A stretch of DNA of 37,745 bases from a virus, in IMG/VR virus record IMGVR_UViG_3300024496_000060, positions 1 through 37,745 of that record; one strand, given 5' to 3'. The position numbers and the translations under genes were made by a program. Shown in pieces: positions 3,590 through 16,300 of this stretch; within the stretch, counting starts at the first letter, position 1; each line of letters begins with the position of its first letter. Under the pieces are notes generated by a model, which had not been told where the DNA came from, made no database searches, and saw only the letters and a program-made list of their open reading frames with translations.

Positions 3590-5463
3590 CGGATGCCCAA
3601 GGCAGCGCGGCCGGCAGGGGTGCGAATGCGCTGCAGGGTGGCGGCCTCGGTGGCACGCATCGCCTGCTGCAGGTCAGCCATCGTGACCCAGTTCTGACCC
3701 TGCTGCTGCAGCACCGGGCCGGTGGTCACGTTGATGGTGCTGGGGCCAACCACCGACGCGCCGCGGGCGCCGCCGAGGTAGGCCGCGGCAGCGCCTGCCA
3801 TCTTCGACTCAGGGATGATGTACTCGCGCTCGCCACCTTCGCCAACCATGGCCAGAGTGGGGCGATCAACGACGCCGCCCTCGGCGAATCGAGGAACAGG
3901 CACCTGAGGAATAAACGAAATATCAGGGCCAGGCAGTTTATTGAAGCCGGCGATCAATACATTGATGGCACGAACTGCTGAATTGATCTGGCCAAAGAAG
4001 GCTCCAAAGAAACTATTGACAATCCCTCGCAATCCATTGATGATGCCACCCCATATTCCGGTAATAAAGTTGCCAGCATTTTGCCATGCCTGTGTGAAGA
4101 ACCCAGCAGCTGCATCCCATATGCCTCGGATGCTCTTGACGTAGGCTTCCCAGCCTTTCATAAACACATTGCCAAACCAGGACAGAAAATCTGTAATTGG
4201 CTTGACGATGTAGTTGGCCCACAGATCAACCCAGAACTTAACATAGACATTCATATACCAATCAGCGATCTTTTGAAAGCCTCCCACCAGGTTCTCCCAT
4301 ACCCAGGTCAGGAAGTTCATGATCGGCTCACGGAAGGCGATGAACAACGCCACGATCGCGGCCACCAGCAGCACGGTCAGACCGACAGGGCCAGTCACCA
4401 CCGCCAGCAGGCCAGGGATCAGCGTGCCGGTGACGAAGGTCAGGATGCCGCCGAGGGCCGCCACGATCCCACTGGTGGCGCCGATGATCGCAGGCAACCA
4501 GCCGGCGATCGTGGCAGCAATGCCGGTGCCGGCGAATGCAGCACCCAGGCCGGCGACGGCTGTGCCGATCGTGCCCAGCGCACCAACGACCGTGCCAATG
4601 ACCGTAGCGATGGCGCCGAAGCTGATGGCGAACAGCGACACCGCAACGATCGCGTTGCGGATACCTGGATCCAGCTTGTTGAACCAGTCGACAACAGCCG
4701 TGATGCCATCAGCCATCTTGTCCAGCACAGGCAGCAGGACGATTGCGATGTCAGCGCCGAGAGAACCAACCTTGCCGCCGAGCATGGTCAGCTTGTCGGA
4801 GTATTGATCAGCTTTCTCTGCGAAGGCGGTTGTCATCTTCACCTTCATCTTGTCGATCGCTTCGCCGCCAAGATTCAGCATTGGCACCAGTTCAGCGCCA
4901 GACTTGCCGAACAACTGCATCGCAAGAGCAGTTTTCTGCGCACCATCAGGCATGCCCTTGAACTTCGTCGCGATGTCGAGCATGACGGCATCAGCGCTGC
5001 GCAGCTTGCCGGTTGCATCAGTTGCGCTGACACCAAGGGTTTTCAATGCGTTTGCTGTTGGGCCGGTCCCAGTCTGCGTTGCTTCAAACATTCCCTTGGA
5101 AAGTTTGGTGATCGCCTTGGCCACCGTCTCAACATCTGTGCCGGATGTTGATGCTGCTTTCTTGAATCGCGCCAATGCCTCAACGCTCACGCCTGTCTTC
5201 TGTGACAGGTTGAACATTTCATTGCCAGCATCGAGCGTCTTCTTGGTCATGGCCACCAGGCCGCCGACGCTGAGCAGCGGTGCCAGCATGCTGAATGATC
5301 CGGCCAGGCCGCCCATGCCAGCGGCAGCCGTCAGACCCTTGAGCCCCACGCTGGCTTCAGTGGCCTTCTGCTTGATGCCACCGATCGCCCGACCCAGTGC
5401 GTTGACCTGGCCCTCGCCGGTGACATCAGCCTTGACCTGCAGCAGCGCTTGCATCACCGCCAT
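3586..5463 (-). CDS. Tape measure protein of tail set 2 (625 aa)
   Basis: It sets tail length and is threaded through the tail tube. The N-terminal half is of the minor-tail tape-measure type, with a conserved-looking segment around residues 75-110 (N-L-S-Q-K-T-G-V-S-V-E-A-L). The middle (about 240-390) contains several strongly hydrophobic segments expected to cross the host membrane during DNA delivery. The C-terminus has the F-A-E-G-G-V-V and G-E-G-G-E-R-E-Y-I-I-P motif typical of tape-measure ends. An SD sequence GGAGG precedes the ATG by 7 bases. The gene begins one base after the GT chaperone extension, the usual place. Scaling from lambda gpH (853 aa, about 135 nm tail) suggests about 100 nm. 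It is of a different type from, and less than a third as long as, the tape measure at 19097-25672. Confidence 0.88.
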   Translation of the reverse strand: MAVMQALLQVKADVTGEGQVNALGRAIGGIKQKATEASVGLKGLTAAAGMGGLAGSFSMLAPLLSVGGLVAMTKKTLDAGNEMFNLSQKTGVSVEALARFKKAASTSGTDVETVAKAITKLSKGMFEATQTGTGPTANALKTLGVSATDATGKLRSADAVMLDIATKFKGMPDGAQKTALAMQLFGKSGAELVPMLNLGGEAIDKMKVKMTTAFAEKADQYSDKLTMLGGKVGSLGADIAIVLLPVLDKMADGITAVVDWFNKLDPGIRNAIVAVSLFAISFGAIATVIGTVVGALGTIGTAVAGLGAAFAGTGIAATIAGWLPAIIGATSGIVAALGGILTFVTGTLIPGLLAVVTGPVGLTVLLVAAIVALFIAFREPIMNFLTWVWENLVGGFQKIADWYMNVYVKFWVDLWANYIVKPITDFLSWFGNVFMKGWEAYVKSIRGIWDAAAGFFTQAWQNAGNFITGIWGGIINGLRGIVNSFFGAFFGQINSAVRAINVLIAGFNKLPGPDISFIPQVPVPRFAEGGVVDRPTLAMVGEGGEREYIIPESKMAGAAAAYLGGARGASVVGPSTINVTTGPVLQQQGQNWVTMADLQQAMRATEAATLQRIRTPAGRAALGIR

Positions 5464-7731: not shown

Positions 7732-8007
7732 TCAGGTGTCCTTGCTGTCGACGTAGGCAGGCTGCTGCTTGAGCCAGGCGTAACCGATCGCCAGCGGGTT
7801 GGGGCCGGGGGCCAGCTCCTCGGTGGGGGCGAACTCGGTGCGGTCGAGGATGGGGCTGGCGCCGGCCTTGGCGGCTGCCTCAGTGGCGTAGTGGCTGACC
7901 TGCAGCAGCAAGCCGTGCTTGTCGGCACGGAGCAGGGAGATCCTGGCGTAGGCGCCGGGGATGGCGATGCCGAACGGAGTCTCGGCGAGGTCGGTGATCA
8001 GGGCCAT
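7732..8007 (-). CDS. Small conserved phage protein (91 aa) at the fibre/tail-2 junction
   Basis: It starts at the ATG overlapping the stop of the beta-roll fibre gene (ATGA at 8007) and ends 2 bases before the tail terminator gene. It begins M-A-L-I-T and has an A-Y-A-R-I-S-L-L strand and a C-terminal A-x-x-W-L-K-Q-Q-P-A-Y/V-D-S-K motif. This resembles small proteins often seen next to siphovirus tail fibre genes, but I cannot name the family. Its tight overlap on both sides ties the fibre cassette to tail set 2 in one translational unit. Confidence 0.6.
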   Translation of the reverse strand: MALITDLAETPFGIAIPGAYARISLLRADKHGLLLQVSHYATEAAAKAGASPILDRTEFAPTEELAPGPNPLAIGYAWLKQQPAYVDSKDT

Positions 8008-9428
8008 CAGTAGGTCATCTCGGTAGTGTTGATCTTGCACACCCACCTGATGGTGGTGGATGCCGCGCCGGTGACTGTGACGGCAATGCCACCGTTGGTG
8101 GTGTCGGCGGTGACGGCCACGGTCCAGGCGGCTGCACCGGCATCGTTGTGGGTCATCGTGACGGTGGGTGTGCCGACCATGGCGGTGGTGGCTGCGCTGG
8201 CGCCGCGCTTGATGGCGCCTGAGATTGTCCAGCGGGCGGTGTTGCCTGCGCCGGTGACGCCTGCGATCACTTCGCCAGAGAAGCTGTATGCGGCGTTGTT
8301 GGGGAGGATGACTTGGTTGGTGGTGCCTGCGGCGCTGGTGTTGCTGGTGAGGACGGTGGCGGTGGCGTCGGTGGTTTGGCGACCTAGGAGTAGGAGGGCG
8401 GACTGGGTGCGGCCAGCCGCACTGGAGATGGGGGCACTACATGCCGGGAAGACGTGATACCCGGTGATACTCCGTGTGTTGCCGTAGGAGCCACCGGAGA
8501 TAAAGGAGTTCTCGCCATTGGCGGTGTTGTTGCTGCCTCCACAAATCCCGGAATAATTGCTGCTAATGACGTTGCTAACGCCGCCACCCATGAATGAGTA
8601 GGAGCCGCTTGCGTTGTGGTTGTAACCGCCACCAATTAAGGTATGTGAGCCGGAGCATGAATTGGTATCGCCACCAATAACGACAGCTCTTGAAGCTGTG
8701 GCGCTATTTGCATTTCCACCCCCCACAAACGCATACAGCCCCGACGCCGTATTGCCATTACCCCCACAAACCGTGGCGTGGGTGTTGGTTTGGGCGGTAT
8801 TGCTTTGGCCGCCGCCGATGAAGCTGTAGGCGCTGATCGCCGTATTGCTGTCGCCTCCTGAAACAGCAGTTGCCTGGGCGGTGGCCCTATTAGCACTACC
8901 TCCGCCGACGGCACTGTATAAAGCAGTGGCCCTGTTTTGATCGCCTCCAGCAATTACAGATTTGTCGCCACTTGCAACTTGTAGTGGGTCTGCACGAAAA
9001 CGCTGCCAATCGACTGCATACGCTCCCCGCTTATTCCCCCCAAACGCCGTGCCATCCGGCACCGCTGCGAGTGTTGCGCCTGTGCCCTTGGCGACGATGG
9101 CCACGTCGATGTTCGTGTAGCTCGCATCCGTCGCCGTCAGCGCATCGACCGGCACGGTCGCATTGGGCGATGCGGTGCTCTCGGACTCGACGAAGTGGGT
9201 CAGGCCGCCGCCGCCGCCACCACCTGCTGTTGCCCACGACAGCACACCAGATCCGTTTGTGCTCAGCACTTGACCGCTGGCGCCATCAGCAGAAGGCAGT
9301 GTCCAGATGCAGTTGGTGGCAATAGTGGTAGGAGCCTTGAGGCCGACATAAGCAGACGAATCCGCATCAGCCAGCCGCAGCTCGCGTCGCGCGTTTAGCG
9401 TTATGTCGGTTTCAAAAACCCTTGCCAT
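8007..9428 (-). CDS. Tail fibre / adhesin with YadA-like beta-roll repeats (473 aa)
   Basis: Residues ~1-65 form a collar module (L-R-L-A-D-A-D-S-S, W-T-L-P, T-N-G-S-G) also present in the fibre at 12246-13394. A run of seven glycines (about residues 69-75) follows as a hinge. Residues ~153-320 hold about eleven 14-16-residue repeats with GG(G/D)xxNxA and YS(A/F)(V/I) themes, like the left-handed beta-roll of YadA-type head domains. The C-terminal ~140 residues look like a globular beta domain. Probably a trimeric receptor-binding or surface-adhesion fibre; the role is inferred from architecture and neighbours. Confidence 0.75.
   Translation of the reverse strand: MARVFETDITLNARRELRLADADSSAYVGLKAPTTIATNCIWTLPSADGASGQVLSTNGSGVLSWATAGGGGGGGLTHFVESESTASPNATVPVDALTATDASYTNIDVAIVAKGTGATLAAVPDGTAFGGNKRGAYAVDWQRFRADPLQVASGDKSVIAGGDQNRATALYSAVGGGSANRATAQATAVSGGDSNTAISAYSFIGGGQSNTAQTNTHATVCGGNGNTASGLYAFVGGGNANSATASRAVVIGGDTNSCSGSHTLIGGGYNHNASGSYSFMGGGVSNVISSNYSGICGGSNNTANGENSFISGGSYGNTRSITGYHVFPACSAPISSAAGRTQSALLLLGRQTTDATATVLTSNTSAAGTTNQVILPNNAAYSFSGEVIAGVTGAGNTARWTISGAIKRGASAATTAMVGTPTVTMTHNDAGAAAWTVAVTADTTNGGIAVTVTGAASTTIRWVCKINTTEMTY
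8469..8972 (-). repeat. Coding repeats of the YadA-like beta-roll (about 11 units)
   Basis: Degenerate 42-48 base units encode the GG-x-x-N-x-A repeats inside the fibre at 8007-9428. They are diverged at DNA level but regular at protein level, so they reflect protein structure and not a young tandem expansion. Confidence 0.7.
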
Positions 9429-10219
9429 CAGCCCATCACCACCACGCGGTAGGCATTAGCCGCTGGGGCCGTGGCAAACACCAGCTGGCATGTTGTCGTC
9501 GTGGGGCGGTAGACATCAACCTCCACGTCGTCGTAGTTGCCGGAGTTGGGGAACACGCGGATGATCACGTCGCGGGTGTTCAAGCTATGCGTGATCGTGT
9601 AGCTTGTGGCGCTGCCATCGCCAATGCTGGTGCTGTACTTCCGCAGCCGGCCGGACCAGTTCGCCAGTTTGGCTGGGGTGACAATGCGAGCGTCGTCCGT
9701 TCCAGCGTCCGTTTCTGCCTGCGTGGCGATCTCGGCGATGCCAGCGGTAGTCTCGCTTGCAGCTGGCGCAACAGTACCAAACGATGACCAAATGACGTTG
9801 CTGCTCTCCAGCGTGCCATTCACCTGCGTCTGTCGGAAGGTTGCACCGGCATCGGTACCTTCCTCGACTGTCGTGACGGCCTGCTCAAGCTCGGCAAAGG
9901 TGCTGGCATCCAGCGCCCGCGTCATCGCGACAGCAGCGCCGTTCCACACATAGATGCCGTTAGCGCTCTGCGCGGTCTGGTTGCGCACCAGCACGCGATC
10001 CTGCGACGCCATCGTGACGCCATCAATCGTGGCGCCAGGGCTGCTCAGGTTGACGTTGCTTTGCGTGGCGACACGACAGCTGTCCTTCCATGCCAAGCCC
10101 TCGATGGCTGAATCGACATACGCTTTGTTTGCAGCGTCGCCGCTTGCCGTAGGCGACGGCAGGTTAATGACCTTCGAGACCGACTGCAGGTCGAGGTCGG
10201 TGAAGAACTTGCGAGCCAT
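9428..10219 (-). CDS. Tail fibre protein (263 aa)
   Basis: The N-terminus has a P-S-P-T-A-S-G-D-A-A-N-K-A-Y-V-D-S motif, a common virion-attachment motif of phage fibres. The middle carries I-Y-V-W-N-G and related beta motifs. A T-T-A-G-I-A-E-I-A-T-Q-A-E-T-D-A-G-T-D-D module around residues 160-180 is another known fibre repeat type. A C-terminal beta domain (I-T-H-S-L-N-T-R-D-V) follows. It lies between the collagen-like gene and the beta-roll fibre and overlaps the next start. Likely part of the side or tip fibres. Confidence 0.75.
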   Translation of the reverse strand: MARKFFTDLDLQSVSKVINLPSPTASGDAANKAYVDSAIEGLAWKDSCRVATQSNVNLSSPGATIDGVTMASQDRVLVRNQTAQSANGIYVWNGAAVAMTRALDASTFAELEQAVTTVEEGTDAGATFRQTQVNGTLESSNVIWSSFGTVAPAASETTAGIAEIATQAETDAGTDDARIVTPAKLANWSGRLRKYSTSIGDGSATSYTITHSLNTRDVIIRVFPNSGNYDDVEVDVYRPTTTTCQLVFATAPAANAYRVVVMG

Positions 10220-10220
10220 A

Positions 10221-10622
10221 TCAGATCAGGCGGGCGAGGCCAGCAGATGCTGGATTCAGTGTAACCACAGTCTGGTTGGCGCTTGGATGCGCTATGTCAC
10301 CGTCGATTTCTTGGCTGCCGCTATCCAGCAATTCAACCGATGGCTTATAGCCAAGATTATGGTTAATAGTCCAAGTTGTTGCGGGTATGGATTGTGTGTG
10401 AACATAGGCAGAACCGCCGGCTGGGCCTTGAGGGCCTTCAGGACCTTGAGGACCTTCAGGACCTTGAGGGCCTTCAGGACCTTGCGCACCTACGGGACCT
10501 TGTGGACCGGCTGTAAATGCTGTGACTGTAGTGGTAAGCGGCGTGGTTACAACGGTCGTTGTTCCATCACCTTCGATAAAAGTAACCGTATTATTTACAG
10601 CGGTAACGTTTACGGATGTCAT
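10221..10622 (-). CDS. Collagen-like tail fibre protein (133 aa)
   Basis: A short N-terminal beta region is followed by about nine uninterrupted Gly-Pro/Ala-X triplets (GPQ, GPE type, about residues 39-67), which should form a triple helix. The C-terminal domain has an I-N-H-N-L-G-Y-K-P-S-V motif typical of phage fibre end domains. The product would be a trimeric fibre shaft with tip. It overlaps the 3' end of the gene at 10619-10957 by 4 bases. Confidence 0.75.
   Translation of the reverse strand: MTSVNVTAVNNTVTFIEGDGTTTVVTTPLTTTVTAFTAGPQGPVGAQGPEGPQGPEGPQGPEGPQGPAGGSAYVHTQSIPATTWTINHNLGYKPSVELLDSGSQEIDGDIAHPSANQTVVTLNPASAGLARLI
10422..10508 (-). repeat. Collagen-type triplet repeat tract
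   Basis: On the plus strand the tract reads as near-perfect 18-base units of the form CCTTGAGGRCCTTCAGGA, encoding GPQ-GPE triplets on the minus strand. The low divergence suggests that copy number can change by slippage, altering fibre length. Confidence 0.75.
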
Positions 10623-10957
10623 GCGGTGTACCCCTCGCTGACGTAGATGATGCCTTCGAGGTAATACTCTTTCAGGCCGCTTGGGTTGGTAAGTAGTACG
10701 TCGTAATAGGCTTCGTTGGGGAAGGTGGCGGTGTCGGTATCGCTAAGTGCGATTTCAATGGTGCCGGTGCTGCGGTCGGTGTAGGTAACGGTAAAGTCAG
10801 CGTACTTAGTGGTGCGATTTTGATTCCAGACCTGAGCGGCGGCAGTCCAACCGGTGAGGTTGATTACGGCGTTGTTGCTGTCCTTGAACCGCAGCGTGAC
10901 GCTGTAATCCGCTCGGCGCTGGAGCGTGATGTTGTACGTGCCCGGAGAGACTGCCAT
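10619..10957 (-). CDS. Baseplate/fibre-anchoring protein, BppU N-terminal-like (112 aa)
   Basis: A small all-beta protein with Y-N-I-T-L-Q-R-R-A-D-Y at the start and an F-K-D-S-x-N-x-x-I-N-L-T-G-W motif. This pattern is common in the immunoglobulin-like N-terminal domain of phage upper baseplate proteins. It sits at the head of the collagen-like and fibre genes, so it may anchor fibres to the tip. The start ATG at 10957 is 10 bases after the stop of the small gene at 10967-11110. Confidence 0.6.
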   Translation of the reverse strand: MAVSPGTYNITLQRRADYSVTLRFKDSNNAVINLTGWTAAAQVWNQNRTTKYADFTVTYTDRSTGTIEIALSDTDTATFPNEAYYDVLLTNPSGLKEYYLEGIIYVSEGYTA

Positions 10958-10966
10958 GGCTCCAGC

Positions 10967-11110
10967 TTAGCGACCCTGGCCGCGCAGCTTTTTGCGGTTG
11001 TGGCTTGGCCTGCTATGGCGGCCATGCCCTTGACCTGCGCTAAGCTGACCCTGATTTTGACGTGTTTCATGGCCACCACTCGCGGTATCAAACCACTGCC
11101 CCCTTTGCAC
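10967..11110 (-). CDS. Small basic protein (47 aa), paralogue of the gene at 11580-11717, probably disrupted at its 5' end
   Basis: A minus-strand frame from a GTG at 11110 to TAA at 10967-10969 encodes a Gly/Gln/Arg/His-rich protein ending K-K-L-R-G-Q-G-R. The neighbouring 45-aa gene ends K-K-P-L-R-G-Q-G-R and both carry an S-R-P motif 10-15 residues earlier, so the two are homologous. The first ~14 codons lie antisense to the start of the HNH gene, and no in-frame ATG exists. The true 5' end may therefore have been replaced when the endonuclease arrived. It could be a relic or a functional shortened copy. Family not recognised. Confidence 0.45.
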   Translation of the reverse strand: MQRGQWFDTASGGHETRQNQGQLSAGQGHGRHSRPSHNRKKLRGQGR

Positions 11111-11656
11111 GAATTAGAGACGTGGTTTGCCATTGACGGATCAGACCTTGTTTGGCGTACTAGCTATTTCAAGGAACTCATAGGCAAGCGCGCTGGATAT
11201 TTGCGACCAGACGGATACATCGAGATTAGGAAACAAAATAATAAAATGCTTGCACATAGAATCGCTTACTATATTGCCACCAAGGAAAATCCTGGCAATT
11301 ACTTTATAGATCATATAGACGGAAACCCGTCTAACAACTGTCCTAGTAATTTACGAATGGCTACTGCAACAGAGAATTTGCGGAACTGCAGAAGACTGCG
11401 CAGAAACAATACGTCTGGCCGATCAGGCGTACTGTACGCCGTAGTTGGAGGCATCGAATATTGGAAGGCTTATGTAGTTGTCAAGGGTAGGCAGCTTCAT
11501 CTTGGATCATACGCGACCAAAGAAGCGGCGATTGCCGCTAGAGAAGTTGCTGAAAAATTCACTTACGGAAAATTTGCCCCTATCGCCCTTGACCCCGAAG
11601 AGGTTTTTTGCCTCTTCGCCGAGGGCGAGAGTTTTTGCCGTAGCCATCCCGTGTAG
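11069..11656 (+). CDS. HNH homing endonuclease with AP2-like DNA-binding domain (195 aa)
   Basis: This is the only supported plus-strand gene. Residues ~61-106 carry the HNH nuclease core (L-A-H-R-I-A-Y-Y, then D-H-I-D-G-N at 81-86, then N-L-R-x-A-T-x-x-E-N). Residues ~118-170 match an AP2-type DNA-binding domain (G-V-x-Y, W-x-A-Y, L-G-S-Y-x-T-K-E-A-A). I chose the ATG at 11069 because the domain begins soon after; a longer frame to 10820 is antisense to a fibre gene. The DNA from about 11100 to 11579 is clearly more AT-rich than both flanks, a sign of recent transfer. From residue 171 the frame runs antisense through the 3' end of a small minus-strand gene, so the last ~25 residues are probably read-through sequence. 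Such enzymes promote their own spread by cleaving alleles that lack them. Confidence 0.85.
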   Translation: MATTRGIKPLPPLHELETWFAIDGSDLVWRTSYFKELIGKRAGYLRPDGYIEIRKQNNKMLAHRIAYYIATKENPGNYFIDHIDGNPSNNCPSNLRMATATENLRNCRRLRRNNTSGRSGVLYAVVGGIEYWKAYVVVKGRQLHLGSYATKEAAIAAREVAEKFTYGKFAPIALDPEEVFCLFAEGESFCRSHPV

Positions 11657-11717
11657 TTTTCGGCTTGCCGGGCTGGTGCTGGACGGCGGCAGTGCCGGTT
11701 TTGCTGCGGACTGCCAT
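11580..11717 (-). CDS. Small basic Arg/Gly-rich protein (45 aa)
   Basis: The ATG overlaps the stop of the preceding 40-aa gene (TGATG). It is preceded by an SD-like GGAGG ending about 9 bases upstream, so expression is well supported. The protein starts M-A-V-R-S-K-T-G-T-A-A-V, has Q-P-G-K-P-K-T-T-R in the middle and an S-R-P-R-R-R-G-K-K-P-L-R-G-Q-G-R C-terminus with high positive charge. It could bind nucleic acid or a virion surface. Its paralogue lies at 10967-11110 on the other side of the HNH gene. I do not recognise a named family. Confidence 0.6.
   Translation of the reverse strand: MAVRSKTGTAAVQHQPGKPKTTRDGYGKNSRPRRRGKKPLRGQGR
11583..11636 (+). terminator. Possible terminator at the end of the HNH gene
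   Basis: Plus-strand arms TCGCCCT (11583-11589) and CGAAGAGG (11596-11603) pair with CCTCTTCG (11611-11618) and AGGGCGA (11622-11628). A TTTTT run (11632-11636) follows. The same bases encode the C-terminus of the small basic protein on the other strand, so the hairpin could be accidental. Confidence 0.35.
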
Positions 11718-11839
11718 CAGACTGCACCTCCCAGAAGCAGCGCTCGCAACTCATCAAGGTCGAAACCTGCGGCTTTCAAGCGCTCGGCGGCGGTCAGCGG
11801 CATAGGCAAAGCGTCGATCAAGGGAAGATACTTAGGCAC
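11717..11839 (-). CDS. Small protein (40 aa) coupled to its neighbours
   Basis: A GTG-started frame overlaps the stop of the gene at 11832-12242 by 8 bases and ends in TGATG, the start of the next small gene. The sequence contains a helix-forming L-T-A-A-E-R-L-K-A-A-G-F-D-L-D-E-L-R-A-L-L stretch (about residues 15-35). The tight overlaps and protein-like composition support a real gene. Function unknown. Confidence 0.5.
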   Translation of the reverse strand: MPKYLPLIDALPMPLTAAERLKAAGFDLDELRALLLGGAV

Positions 11840-12242
11840 TAAGCGCCTCCTTGATCTCATCCGTGGTAGTGGCTGCATCAATGGCAGATTCGATGATGAC
11901 GTACCGGGCGCGGATAGCAGCGCGAGCGGCTTCGGCCTGGTCGGCGCTGGCGCCGGGGATCTTCAGGCTGATCATGCGGTCATGCGGCGCCAGCTCATCA
12001 GCGCGGCGGCGGCGGCGAATGTCGTGCGCGATGGCCTTGGCGCGGTCCAGGTCGATCTCGATGCCATCGGGGGAGTAGACCCACGCAGCGCGGAAGGTGC
12101 GGTCGGAGGGGATCTGGTCAGCGGTGACGATGGCGTAGATGCCGTCTGGTGCGACCTGCTGGGCGACCTGCTCGATCGGCACCTCTCCGGTGGGAGTGGT
12201 GATCGCGACGCCGGTAGCGGTGGGATGGATGATGTAGGTCAT
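11832..12242 (-). CDS. Conserved phage protein downstream of a tail fibre (136 aa)
   Basis: The first ~60 residues are beta-rich, followed by a F-R-A-A-W-V-Y-S-P-D-G-I-E-I-D-L-D-R-A-K-A-I motif and a charged helical C-terminal half. This arrangement is common in small proteins encoded right after siphovirus tail fibres, and a role in fibre assembly or chaperoning is possible but not shown. It starts 3 bases after the fibre stop at 12246. Confidence 0.55.
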   Translation of the reverse strand: MTYIIHPTATGVAITTPTGEVPIEQVAQQVAPDGIYAIVTADQIPSDRTFRAAWVYSPDGIEIDLDRAKAIAHDIRRRRRADELAPHDRMISLKIPGASADQAEAARAAIRARYVIIESAIDAATTTDEIKEALSA

Positions 12243-12245
12243 GGG

Positions 12246-13394
12246 TCAGCGGAAGATAGACACGCCAACGTAAGGCATGTCTTGAAGGCCAGTTGCACTG
12301 TTATTTGTCTGAATACGGACTGAGTTTGCGGCAATGCTTGTATAAGCGTTGCCGCTGGTTGGCCACACACCGGAATAGCCAGGGTTGCCGGTAGTGCCGT
12401 CACCACGATGGATAGTCGAGTTTACACAGTAGCTTGCATCCGGCATCGCCGTCGTGAAGTTCACCGTATAGTCACCCACGCCATTGTCAGTGATGCTGCT
12501 GACGTTGTAGCTGGCGCGGATCGCCACGATGCCGGTGCCGTCGAAGTTGACCCAGGCGCGGCACAGTTGCCCGCCAACACTGCCAGGGCTGAGTGCCTTG
12601 GTGTTGTCGTAGAACCCAACCGGATCGCTGCTGAGTGTGGCGCCTGCATTGGCGCTGAGTGTGACGGTGGTGCCGCTGATGCTGGCGACCGTCGTGCCGG
12701 GTGTGATGCCTTCGCCGGTCACCACCATGCCAGCAACGATGCCGGTGGCGCTGGCGACCGTCAGGCTGGCGGTGCCGCTGGTGATGGTGCCAGTGGTGTG
12801 GATGCCATTGATGTCGGTGCGGGTGGCCACAGCGGCGCCAGCATCACCCCATGTGAGCGTGCCACTGCCGTTGGTCTTCAGCGCCTGTCCGTTGGTGCCA
12901 TCAGTAGCCGGCAGCGTCCACGTAACATTGCTCGATACTGTAGCCGGCGCTTGGAAGGCTACCCAGTTGCTGCTGTCGCTATCAGCCAGGCGCAGGTCAC
13001 CTTGACCGTAGATGGTGACATCACCGGCGCTGCTGATGCCAACGCGGCGCGTGCCGCCAGTGGCAAAGTCAAGCGCATCAGTACCGCTGCTGTAGATGCC
13101 GGTGTCAATACCGGAGTCCTTGAAATACAGCGATGGCGCTGCAGCAGTGCCGTTCTCAAGGGCAATGCTTGTCCACTCTCCATCCAGTTGGTAGAGCGTG
13201 ATCCAGGCTGAGTTTGCGCCATTGCGCATCTTCATCACGCCGGCCGTGGTATCGGCCCAGCGCATGTATGCGAAGGTGGTGCTGGGCTCAGCGGCGCCAC
13301 TGTTCTGGCTGACGATCGCAGCCAGGGCGTTGTTCAGGTCAGCGCGGAAGGCGGCCCCGGATTGGTTGGCAATCGCGTAGTCGTGCTGCGCCAT
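12246..13394 (-). CDS. Tail fibre protein (382 aa)
   Basis: The N-terminus (M-A-Q-H-D-Y-A-I-A-N-Q-S-G-A-A-F-R-A-D-L-N) is a virion-attachment type seen in phage fibres. A module at about residues 130-180 (L-R-L-A-D-S-D-S-S-N-W, W-T-L-P-A-T-D-G, T-N-G-S-G-T-L-T-W) is shared with the beta-roll fibre at 8007-9428. A Val/Thr/Gly-rich segment (about 200-260) leads to a C-terminal domain with C-R-A-W-V-N-F-D-G-T-G and V-N-F-T-T-A-M-P-D-A-S-Y motifs known from fibre tips. The start overlaps the J stop by 1 base. Confidence 0.8.
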   Translation of the reverse strand: MAQHDYAIANQSGAAFRADLNNALAAIVSQNSGAAEPSTTFAYMRWADTTAGVMKMRNGANSAWITLYQLDGEWTSIALENGTAAAPSLYFKDSGIDTGIYSSGTDALDFATGGTRRVGISSAGDVTIYGQGDLRLADSDSSNWVAFQAPATVSSNVTWTLPATDGTNGQALKTNGSGTLTWGDAGAAVATRTDINGIHTTGTITSGTASLTVASATGIVAGMVVTGEGITPGTTVASISGTTVTLSANAGATLSSDPVGFYDNTKALSPGSVGGQLCRAWVNFDGTGIVAIRASYNVSSITDNGVGDYTVNFTTAMPDASYCVNSTIHRGDGTTGNPGYSGVWPTSGNAYTSIAANSVRIQTNNSATGLQDMPYVGVSIFR

Positions 13395-16300
13395 CAGATG
13401 ACCTCCCGGCCGTAGCCGATGGCAGTGTAGCTGAACTGGCGCGAGATCATGCTATTAGCTGCGTTGTAGAAGGTGATCGAGAACCCAGACCGGGTGGGGC
13501 TGCTGATCACATAGTAATCACCCGTTGCCATGTTGTATGCGGTGATGCCAAGCTGCGGGGCCTGGTAGAAGCGGTTAGCGAACGTGACCGCATAGGCTGC
13601 TGCAGCTGTCGTCAGCGGGCCAGCGCTGGCGCTGCGTTGCTGTAACTCAAGCTCACAACCAAGCTCGTCGATGACGATGTTTTGATCGTTGCTGGTGCTG
13701 GTAGCAATGGTCTTGAACTGAAATGCGCGGCCACGGGTCAACGCATTAGCAAACTCGCGCCATGCCGTCCACGCGGGCGACGCGCCAGGATCGTCGTTGG
13801 TAGAACGTACATAAAGCGCAGCGTTGACAGCATCATAAAGCGTGCCATCAAAGGTGGGCCACGTATCAATCAATGCGGTATTGTCATCGAACAGATCGCC
13901 AGGCGCATAAGGCCGTGTGACAAAATACCGGCGCATGTCAAGGTCATATACGCCACCTAGATCAAAGGTACTGCCGAACTCGTATTCCCCAGAGCCCAGG
14001 CTGCCGCTTACGGCGTCGATGGTACCTAGTGCGTCCCAGTTGCCATCCGTTGCTAATGCGTCGATCTTGGTACCGGTGGCGAGGATCAGGCCATCTAGCT
14101 CAGCGCTGTAGATCATGTCGGTGACATTGCCCGAGAATGGCGGCGTCTCTTGATCTTCACGGTAGGACTGCACCAGTAGGCGCGGTTGCGGCGCCGGCAG
14201 TTGTACTACAGCGGTGGCAGCGGTGGCAGAACGTCGGCCACCGTCATCCTCAAACTTGACCAGATAGGTGCCGGTCAGTAATGGCACTTGCTTTTGCGTC
14301 TGGCTTCCGGCTGCTGCTGATACGATCTCTTGGCTATCCTCCCATAACGCACCAGTGCTAGCGATGTTATGGCGGATCAGTACCTTGCCGCCCAGCAACA
14401 CATCAAGCTCAGTAGCACGATCCCAGCTGAGGATAGCGCTTGCCGTGTCGATAGGGATTAGCGACAGTCCAGTTACAGTGGCAGGCGGTGCCGTCTTACC
14501 AGCGGTTACCTTAGTTAGCTCTGCCGGTTGTGTTGACGGCAGCAGTGATGCGCTGAGGCTGTAAACACGCACCGCATAGGTGCCTGGTGTGGTGTCAAGG
14601 ATCTCATAGTCCGGGCTGCTGACTGTGCGGGTATTCCAGTTATCGCTATCGCGACGCCACTGCACTTGATATTGCGTGACACCAGTAACCGCCCGCCAGC
14701 TAATGATCAGCTTTGCCTTGGCGATACCACCAGCGTCATAGAGCACTTCATTTCCTGTCAGGTCGATCGGCGGTGGCGGGACGATGTTTAGGTCTGTGAT
14801 GTCCCGTTGCTGCAGCGCGATGTCACGTTCAACGTAGGCGTACTTACTGGCGTTATAGGCCAGTGCGGTAACGCCATACTGATTGCCTTCGTCTGTTTCA
14901 GTAATAGACAGCACCCGCCATGTTGATGCTTGTATATTGCTGGTTTGATACACCCATACGCTGTTTGCATTAGGTGCGGCACTGAAATTACTGGTAACGA
15001 CGATGCTATTGCCAACAATGGATTGGATAGCGCGTGATTCAACGGCGCCGGTTGGCAAGATGACCGATAACTCAGCGCCGGCTACGGCTGATAGGCCGGT
15101 AGCATCGTCTACGGTGATAGTGGAGGCGGAGGCGGCTGCTATGCGTCCACCACGACGTACCCCAGCGCGTAGCGGATCTGCCACCTCGATCACTTGGCCA
15201 GGGCGTACAACCACACCGGCGTCGATGCTGGTGGTGAAGCTGATCACCTCAGATTCGTAGCGCTCGGAGTAGAGTAGCCATTCGCCTAGGCGATGCGCCT
15301 GTCCACGGCTAGTGCAGGCAAAAGCGTCTACTTCTTCCTTGACAACACCGTATTTGCTTATGCCATCTTGATCCTCAACTACCTCGTAAGCCTTCTCACG
15401 TGTTTCAAGGTCAAGGTAACTGACCACGGCAACAGTAGGTCGTGCCTTACGGCTGCTGCCTTGATAACTAAAGCCCTCTGCTGTGACATTGGCTAGCGTG
15501 AATAGGTATGCGCTGTCAGTTGGCTTGTCCTGGCTGATTGTTAGCGTACCAATGCCCCAGTAGGGCATCACACGCATAACGCTGCACAGATCATTGATCA
15601 GCTTGTATGCCTCAGTTTGCGTCTGGATGTTGACATTACAGCTAAAGCGTGGCTCCGTCCCGCCGAAGCCATTAGGCACCAACTCGCTGGCGTATTGCGA
15701 AGCTGCCAAGAACGCCCACTTATCAAGCTGCGCTGCTTTGATGTGATCGCCGAATCCGTAACGTGTGCTGGTGAGCAGATCCCACAGGATCCAAGCTGGA
15801 TCGCTACACCACTGCGCAGCGCCAAAGGTGCCATTCCAGATGCCGGCATAGGTCAAACGGCCGGTTGCGCTATCAACGGTGGCATTGCTAGGGATTTGTA
15901 CCTTGATGCCCCGGATGTGGTAGGCGCGTGATGGGATGTTATTGAACTGCTCTGCGTCAAGCCGTAGCGCTACCAGTGCGCTGTTTGGATACCGCAGTTT
16001 GGCGTAAATAATCTCAGTGTATGAGGTCCATTGGATTGCGCTAGAGGACTCGATAACATTGGAGTCTTGCTCAATGCGTGTGCTATCCGACACTGAGATA
16101 CGTGTTACACGAATATCAGCGGTGGTAAAGCCATCGGTTAGGTTGACGATGTAATCGGTTTGAAATGGATCAGACGTGCGCCCAGAGATTGCGTCTGTAA
16201 TCACTGTGGTAAAGCCACCGCCGTCATACTGAACAGCGATAGAATAGGTTACGGATAACCCGTAAACGTTGCCGTCTTTTGCGCTCTGCTGCAGCTGTGG

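Follow-up and report, generated by a model that had tools for sequence, protein, structure and literature searches.

An HNH endonuclease gene within a small conserved phage gene: a probable compact homing element with a replacement gene end

The DNA analysed here, called the window, comprises the 37,745 nucleotides of the IMG/VR virus record IMGVR_UViG_3300024496_000060; related loci are named by number (L002 and so on). An open reading frame (ORF) of 195 aa for an HNH endonuclease lies on its plus strand (positions 11069–11656), opposite to the strand of the neighbouring genes. It is flanked by two small minus-strand ORFs (10967–11110 and 11580–11717), both ending with KK(P)LRGQGR, as an earlier note on this DNA had described. 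The nuclease part of the HNH ORF consists of residues 1–170 (11069–11578) and matches PHROG 99 over residues 12–172 (E 2.6e-43). The match to the Pfam domain HNH_3 passes the Pfam cut-off (E 7.7e-12). The earlier note had recognised an AP2 domain ending at residue 170; this domain end is in good agreement with the PHROG match, but AP2 itself is matched weakly and below the Pfam cut-off (E 0.02). The residues D81 H82 I83 D84, N89 N90 and N94 L95 R96 are invariant across six diverged HNH members, and the HNH domain together with the conserved D-H and N residues identifies the protein as an HNH endonuclease. The GC content of the HNH core goes down to 37–41 %, which bears out the AT-richness noted before. 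Values of dN/dS for the core (0.057 versus L007 and 0.070 versus L006) point to purifying selection; dS was saturated and hence not computable for most distant HNH pairs. A promoter scan gave three promoter-like sites versus 0.8 expected; none of the three lies ahead of the HNH start, for which no convincing promoter was seen. No match was obtained for the HNH protein in a PDB sequence search (E<=0.01), no relative of its clade was confirmed in bacterial and archaeal genomes, and megablast of window positions 8000–14500 against phage records had no match.

The two small ORFs belong to PHROG 516, a family of unknown function. The right-hand gene matches a hidden Markov model (HMM) of its relatives at positions 1–44 (E 1.2e-20) and the left-hand ORF at positions 24–44 only (E 8.2e-8; both in the near-identical contigs). 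Since both ORFs match a model built from relatives, their shared ending is not a product of chance. A tblastn search found the PHROG 516 gene in 93 phage records, the names of which begin with Synechococcus in 76 cases, Cyanophage in 15, Marine in one and uncultured in one. PHROG 516 is a cyanophage family, and the viruses with the HNH gene are thought to infect cyanobacteria. Four further IMG/VR contigs with four different sample numbers (L002–L005) are 99.5–100 % identical to the window in this region; thus, the arrangement is no assembly accident.

An uninterrupted allele, which the earlier note had proposed to look for among relatives without the HNH gene, is present in the contig IMGVR_UViG_3300007177_000028 (L009; L012 is the same contig). 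L009 is 95.4 % identical to the window over positions 9420–11032 and 96.5 % over 11658–11801 and lacks everything between these two flanks, which agrees with the view of the HNH gene as an insertion. Instead of two small ORFs L009 has a single uninterrupted gene of 44 aa, MAVRSKTGTAAVQHQPGKPK-LTRQGHGRHSRPSHNRKKLRGQGR. This gene joins the first 20 codons of the right-hand gene of the window to the tail of its left-hand "gene"; a single gene was thus interrupted by the HNH unit, somewhere between codon 20 and about codon 23. In L009 the sequence corresponding to window position 11032 is followed by 9 bp and then by position 11658; in the window these 9 bp (codons 21–23) are absent or changed, and the junction is thus not perfectly clean. 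The unit is therefore polymorphic for presence and absence at one site in near-identical relatives (window and L009), with L007 and L020 as a supporting pair. A second difference between both contigs lies beside the element (window 11802–12909 versus L009 5367–6151). Here a tail-fibre-assembly-like gene of 110 aa is intact in L009, and the window keeps only its C-terminal part (ORF 11717–11881), which adjoins an unrelated gene of 136 aa; this seems to reflect an exchange of tail modules. Also beside the tail genes of the window, the minus strand (10221–10622) encodes a small protein that contains a collagen-like repeat (GPQGPEGPQ); its Pfam Collagen match is below the cut-off.

The inserted unit has a size of about 0.62 kb (about 11033–11657), and the interrupted gene is distributed over three segments on the minus strand. 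The native 5′ part (11658–11717; codons 1–20, MAVRSKTGTAAVQHQPGKPK) has 57/60 nucleotides in common with L009/L012. It is continued by a captured C-terminus of "type B" (11580–11657; codons 21–45 and stop, TTRDGYGKNSRPRRRGKKPLRGQGR). Beyond the HNH gene follows the displaced native 3′ end (10967–11032; codons 24–44 and stop, QGHGRHSRPSHNRKKLRGQGR), which is identical to L012 (66/66 nt). Between the HNH start and this displaced end lies the outer left end of the element (11033–11068), which is absent from L009 and partly common to L007 and L008. The captured C-terminus agrees in 73/78 nucleotides with L103 and in 71/78 with L106, both without HNH gene, and in 40/78 with the native end of L009 (94 % identity to the L103 end versus 51 % to the L009 end). 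For a ranking of the segments a panel of 149 loci was reduced to 123 distinct HNH-less genes with a K-P-K/P-P-K anchor, duplicates and unanchored genes being left out; these were divided by the KPLRG ending into 68 of "type A" and 55 of "type B". Nearest-neighbour ranks were preferred to a tree because the C-termini are only 25 codons long. L012 ranks first among the 123 genes for both the N-terminal part and the remnant but 108th for the captured C-terminus, for which L103 is first.

The similarity of the window DNA to L103 and L106 ends at position 11579, directly past the stop codon of the small gene, so 11579/11580 is the seam between the nuclease and the captured gene end. The earlier note had placed the edge of the insertion here; the seam is real, but the outer edge is located at 11657/11658, where the stop codon of the HNH ORF abuts the junction. 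Accordingly, HNH residues 171–195 result from reading the captured C-terminus in antisense (88 % to the antisense of L103 in tblastn). With a foreign C-terminus in frame with the native gene and a displaced native end nearest to uninvaded relatives, the right-hand gene is a chimera of native codons 1–20 and a C-terminus that came with the element, and the displaced native 3′ end makes up the left-hand "gene", a fragment without a start of its own. The GTG start of the left ORF is situated in sequence antisense to the HNH gene, and the suggestion that the left copy lost its own start to the insertion holds. The direction of the capture could also be the reverse: the C-terminal end of L103 and L106 may come from an element that later lost its HNH gene. 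L103-like phages may thus be either the donors or descendants of such an element.

A scan with the C-terminal half of the HNH protein delimited a clade of 12 contigs, L002–L008 and five new ones, whose HNH proteins are about 56–61 % identical over the aligned parts. In 12/12 of these contigs the HNH gene overlaps the PHROG 516 gene in antisense. They represent six genomic contexts (the window type, L007, L008, L263/L264, L265 and L266/L267), L263/L264 and L266/L267 each being merged on the basis of similar sequence. A displaced C-terminal fragment was recognised by the family HMM in eight of the 12 contigs versus none of 151 loci without the element. Among the four others, the fragment is decayed in L008 (by eye ...QKLIGQGS, stop), L263 lies at a contig edge, and L266 and L267 have none. 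L264 and L265 possess a stop codon just ahead of the displaced fragment, which is therefore untranslatable in place. Neither a second full copy nor an extra C-terminal fragment occurs in the 151 fetched loci where the PHROG 516 gene is full and an HNH gene of this kind is absent; three of them have an extra N-terminal fragment. The scans for relatives gave the best 80 of 558, 267, 191, 404 and 252 confirmed matches, and all counts refer to the loci fetched. Among 162 HNH loci of all identities, a match to the PHROG 516 family is restricted to clade members (17 loci, which are redundant views of the same contigs). L010 and L011 were set aside: their HNH genes are distant relatives, and no PHROG 516 family gene was detected beside them. 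Other HNH genes with 30–35 % identity were found at most about 1.5 kb away from a PHROG 516 gene without overlapping it (L100 2472–2888, L128 3064–3531, L079 367–882). A truncated PHROG 516 N-part followed by a full copy and lacking any HNH gene is present in L145 (3409–4078), L155 (3409–4075) and L114 (3534–4075); in L145 and L114 another small gene lies in between.

L007, a contig of 62 kb, has the same arrangement as the window. Homology around the site is limited to window positions 10963–11723 (blastn), weaker matches appearing about 2.6 kb further in tail genes. The HNH sequences agree in 466/511 nucleotides, the captured C-termini in 73/78 and the N-parts in 42/60, which indicates that the unit is mobile independently of the sequence around it. 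The remnant in L007 is nearest to L018 (60/69). L020 has no HNH gene and the same small protein as L007, and is 91 % identical to the right flank and the remnant of L007. In L008 the HNH protein is 71 % identical to that of the window, and the left flank is 85–87 % identical to the HNH-less L058 and L078. Its N-part is closest to the type B gene of L120 (52/60); therefore, the target in L008 may have been of type B.

On the level of sequence comparison, a mobile unit, a single interrupted gene, a chimera, a displaced native end and recurrence at one codon are established, and so is the occurrence of the same unit at the same gene position in phages with unrelated flanks. We therefore consider it highly probable that the locus harbours a compact homing-endonuclease element of about 0.62 kb, inserted in the PHROG 516 gene at codon 20/21 and equipped with a replacement gene end. 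Cleavage and homing would be functions of the HNH protein. During co-infection it would cut the uninterrupted PHROG 516 gene near codons 20–23, and repair from the occupied allele would copy the unit into the cut one. The diverged replacement end would keep the PHROG 516 product whole and working and would at the same time abolish the cut site, shielding the occupied allele. In this way the element could persist within a conserved gene as neither intron nor intein; as it brings its own gene end, it would need neither splicing nor an intergenic site.

Other explanations have to be measured against these data. The HNH gene might lie between two tandem small genes, the left of which decayed, with L009 having lost the HNH gene and one copy by recombination. 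This would account for the two related C-termini on both sides of the HNH gene, and a gene joined from the right N-part and the left C-part, as in L009, is what one expects of such a recombinant. However, 0/151 HNH-less loci have two full copies or an additional C-terminal fragment, the N-part is present in 0/8 of the detected displaced ends, and the captured end matches another subtype (L103), while the remnant is of the local subtype. A tandem origin, the first of two possibilities offered in the earlier note, is therefore very unlikely, the HNH-less relatives having a single gene. The second, duplication of the small gene along with the HNH gene, holds in so far as small-gene sequence did travel; this was the C-terminus only and not a whole gene. 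It could also be that an ordinary free-standing HNH gene beside a type B gene was moved by chance recombination, the chimera being a by-product and not part of an element. The small-gene region does recombine in other ways and without HNH, as the truncated copies in L145, L155 and L114 illustrate. Nevertheless, we regard passive transfer of this kind as very unlikely, since the codon-20/21 junction, the antisense fusion and the displaced end recur across HNH proteins of only about 56–61 % identity, and the antisense fusion is found without exception in the clade.

HNH genes within conserved genes are typical of group I introns and inteins. Splicing of such an intron or intein from the small gene can practically be dismissed at this locus. 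No Rfam match at E<=1, and hence no group I ribozyme core, was found in positions 10500–12200, and splicing would be pointless for an insert with its own gene end and stop codon. An in-frame intein is further contradicted by the antisense orientation of the HNH gene and by the host gene, which stops inside the insert (11580–11582) instead of being read through in frame.

A homing element with a replacement end has its closest counterpart in the mobile endonuclease ORFs (mORFs) of fungal mitochondria, in which a foreign C-terminus is fused to the native gene, the native end is displaced and the identity between both ends is low (PMC3630166). Examples given there are atp6 of Allomyces macrogynus, credited as the first case, and atp6, atp9, cox2 and nad3 of Glomus sp. 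Common features are an endonuclease ORF in a conserved gene, a diverged C-terminus and a displaced end close to uninvaded relatives. However, the mORFs described there are LAGLIDADG or GIY-YIG enzymes and are in phase with the host gene in atp6 and nad3 (PMC3630166), whereas the window, from a dsDNA phage, has an HNH_3 enzyme on the opposite strand, and the same DNA encodes part of this enzyme and the captured end. Thus, the element appears to work like mORFs without being a member of their lineage.

Free-standing phage homing endonucleases such as the T4 seg and mob genes resemble the window element in being HNH-type genes that some relatives have and others lack, and mobE in nrdA of Aeh1 and mobA in the T4 topoisomerase also sit inside genes (PMC2988022). 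In the accounts given there these insertions leave the gene split and the product consists of two polypeptides, whereas the window element supplies an end and the gene stays whole. ShiLan, an in-frame HNH-coding insertion in the gene of a phage DNA methylase, belongs neither to the introns nor to the inteins (PMC11855218). The host gene frame runs through it, HNH being encoded in another frame, and the available text describes no replacement end. Likewise, replaced gene ends do not appear in the accessible parts of a survey of lactococcal HNH genes (PMC12724721) and a study of cryoconite phages (PMC7468147). A literature search, with thin coverage of subscription journals, found no phage case of the replacement-end strategy. 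The strategy as such has already been described for fungal mitochondria; the window and its relatives show it in phages.

A second target gene came out of a flank-against-flank protein comparison of 107 deduplicated HNH loci of the 162, short-flank and duplicate loci being left out (null distribution: 99 % at score 46, maximum 72). The comparison recovered the PHROG 516 composites at scores of 52–67 and a group formed by L324 (96), L332 (91), L334 (80) and L326 (74), in which a truncated N-terminus of rusA, the HNH gene and a full rusA gene follow each other. L273, with a score of 78, was left out of this group; it looks Arg-rich and of low complexity. The element in rusA comprises 553 bp (L324 2243–2796, L326 2077–2630, L332 2903–3456, L334 148–701), and in L332 the HNH stop and the rusA start overlap as ATGA. 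The N-terminus after the HNH gene is 96–100 % identical (78 nt) across the four loci; their upstream flanks are only 44–49 % identical and the orphan N-termini 59–87 % to each other. For comparison, 14 uninterrupted rusA genes from the 72 HNH-less loci were used; L419 (PF05866, E 4.7e-32), L353, L386 and L359 are uninterrupted relatives. The orphan N-termini reach identities of up to 97 % (L324), 86 % (L332) and 94 % (L334) to uninterrupted genes, the replacement N-termini of the same three loci 62–77 %. The case of L326 is less strong, with no more than 69 % for the orphan, although the upstream flank has an identity of 91 % to the HNH-less L359. The rusA element is an N-terminal replacement and thus the mirror image of the C-terminal one in the window. 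A different HNH gene is present at an earlier rusA codon in L189, L190 and L199 (about 3850–4500); it is preceded by a short, truncated N-terminus of rusA and followed by a full rusA gene. The flank scores of L190 (51) and L199 (45) are near the null limit, and L189 has no separate score.

If the proposed reading is correct, a selfish endonuclease can inhabit a conserved phage gene without splicing, the spare, diverged end leaving this gene whole and presumably immune to re-cutting. The reading predicts a cut site and would explain chimeric small genes as well as orphan gene ends liable to be annotated as paralogs. The comparison of flank against flank, which led to rusA, is a simple test for further cases. 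With PHROG 516 (3′ end) and rusA (5′ end) as examples, we lean towards the view that homing elements with replacement ends of the invaded gene are a general third solution in phages beside introns and inteins, which would continually swap the ends of conserved genes between lineages and thereby make chimeras.
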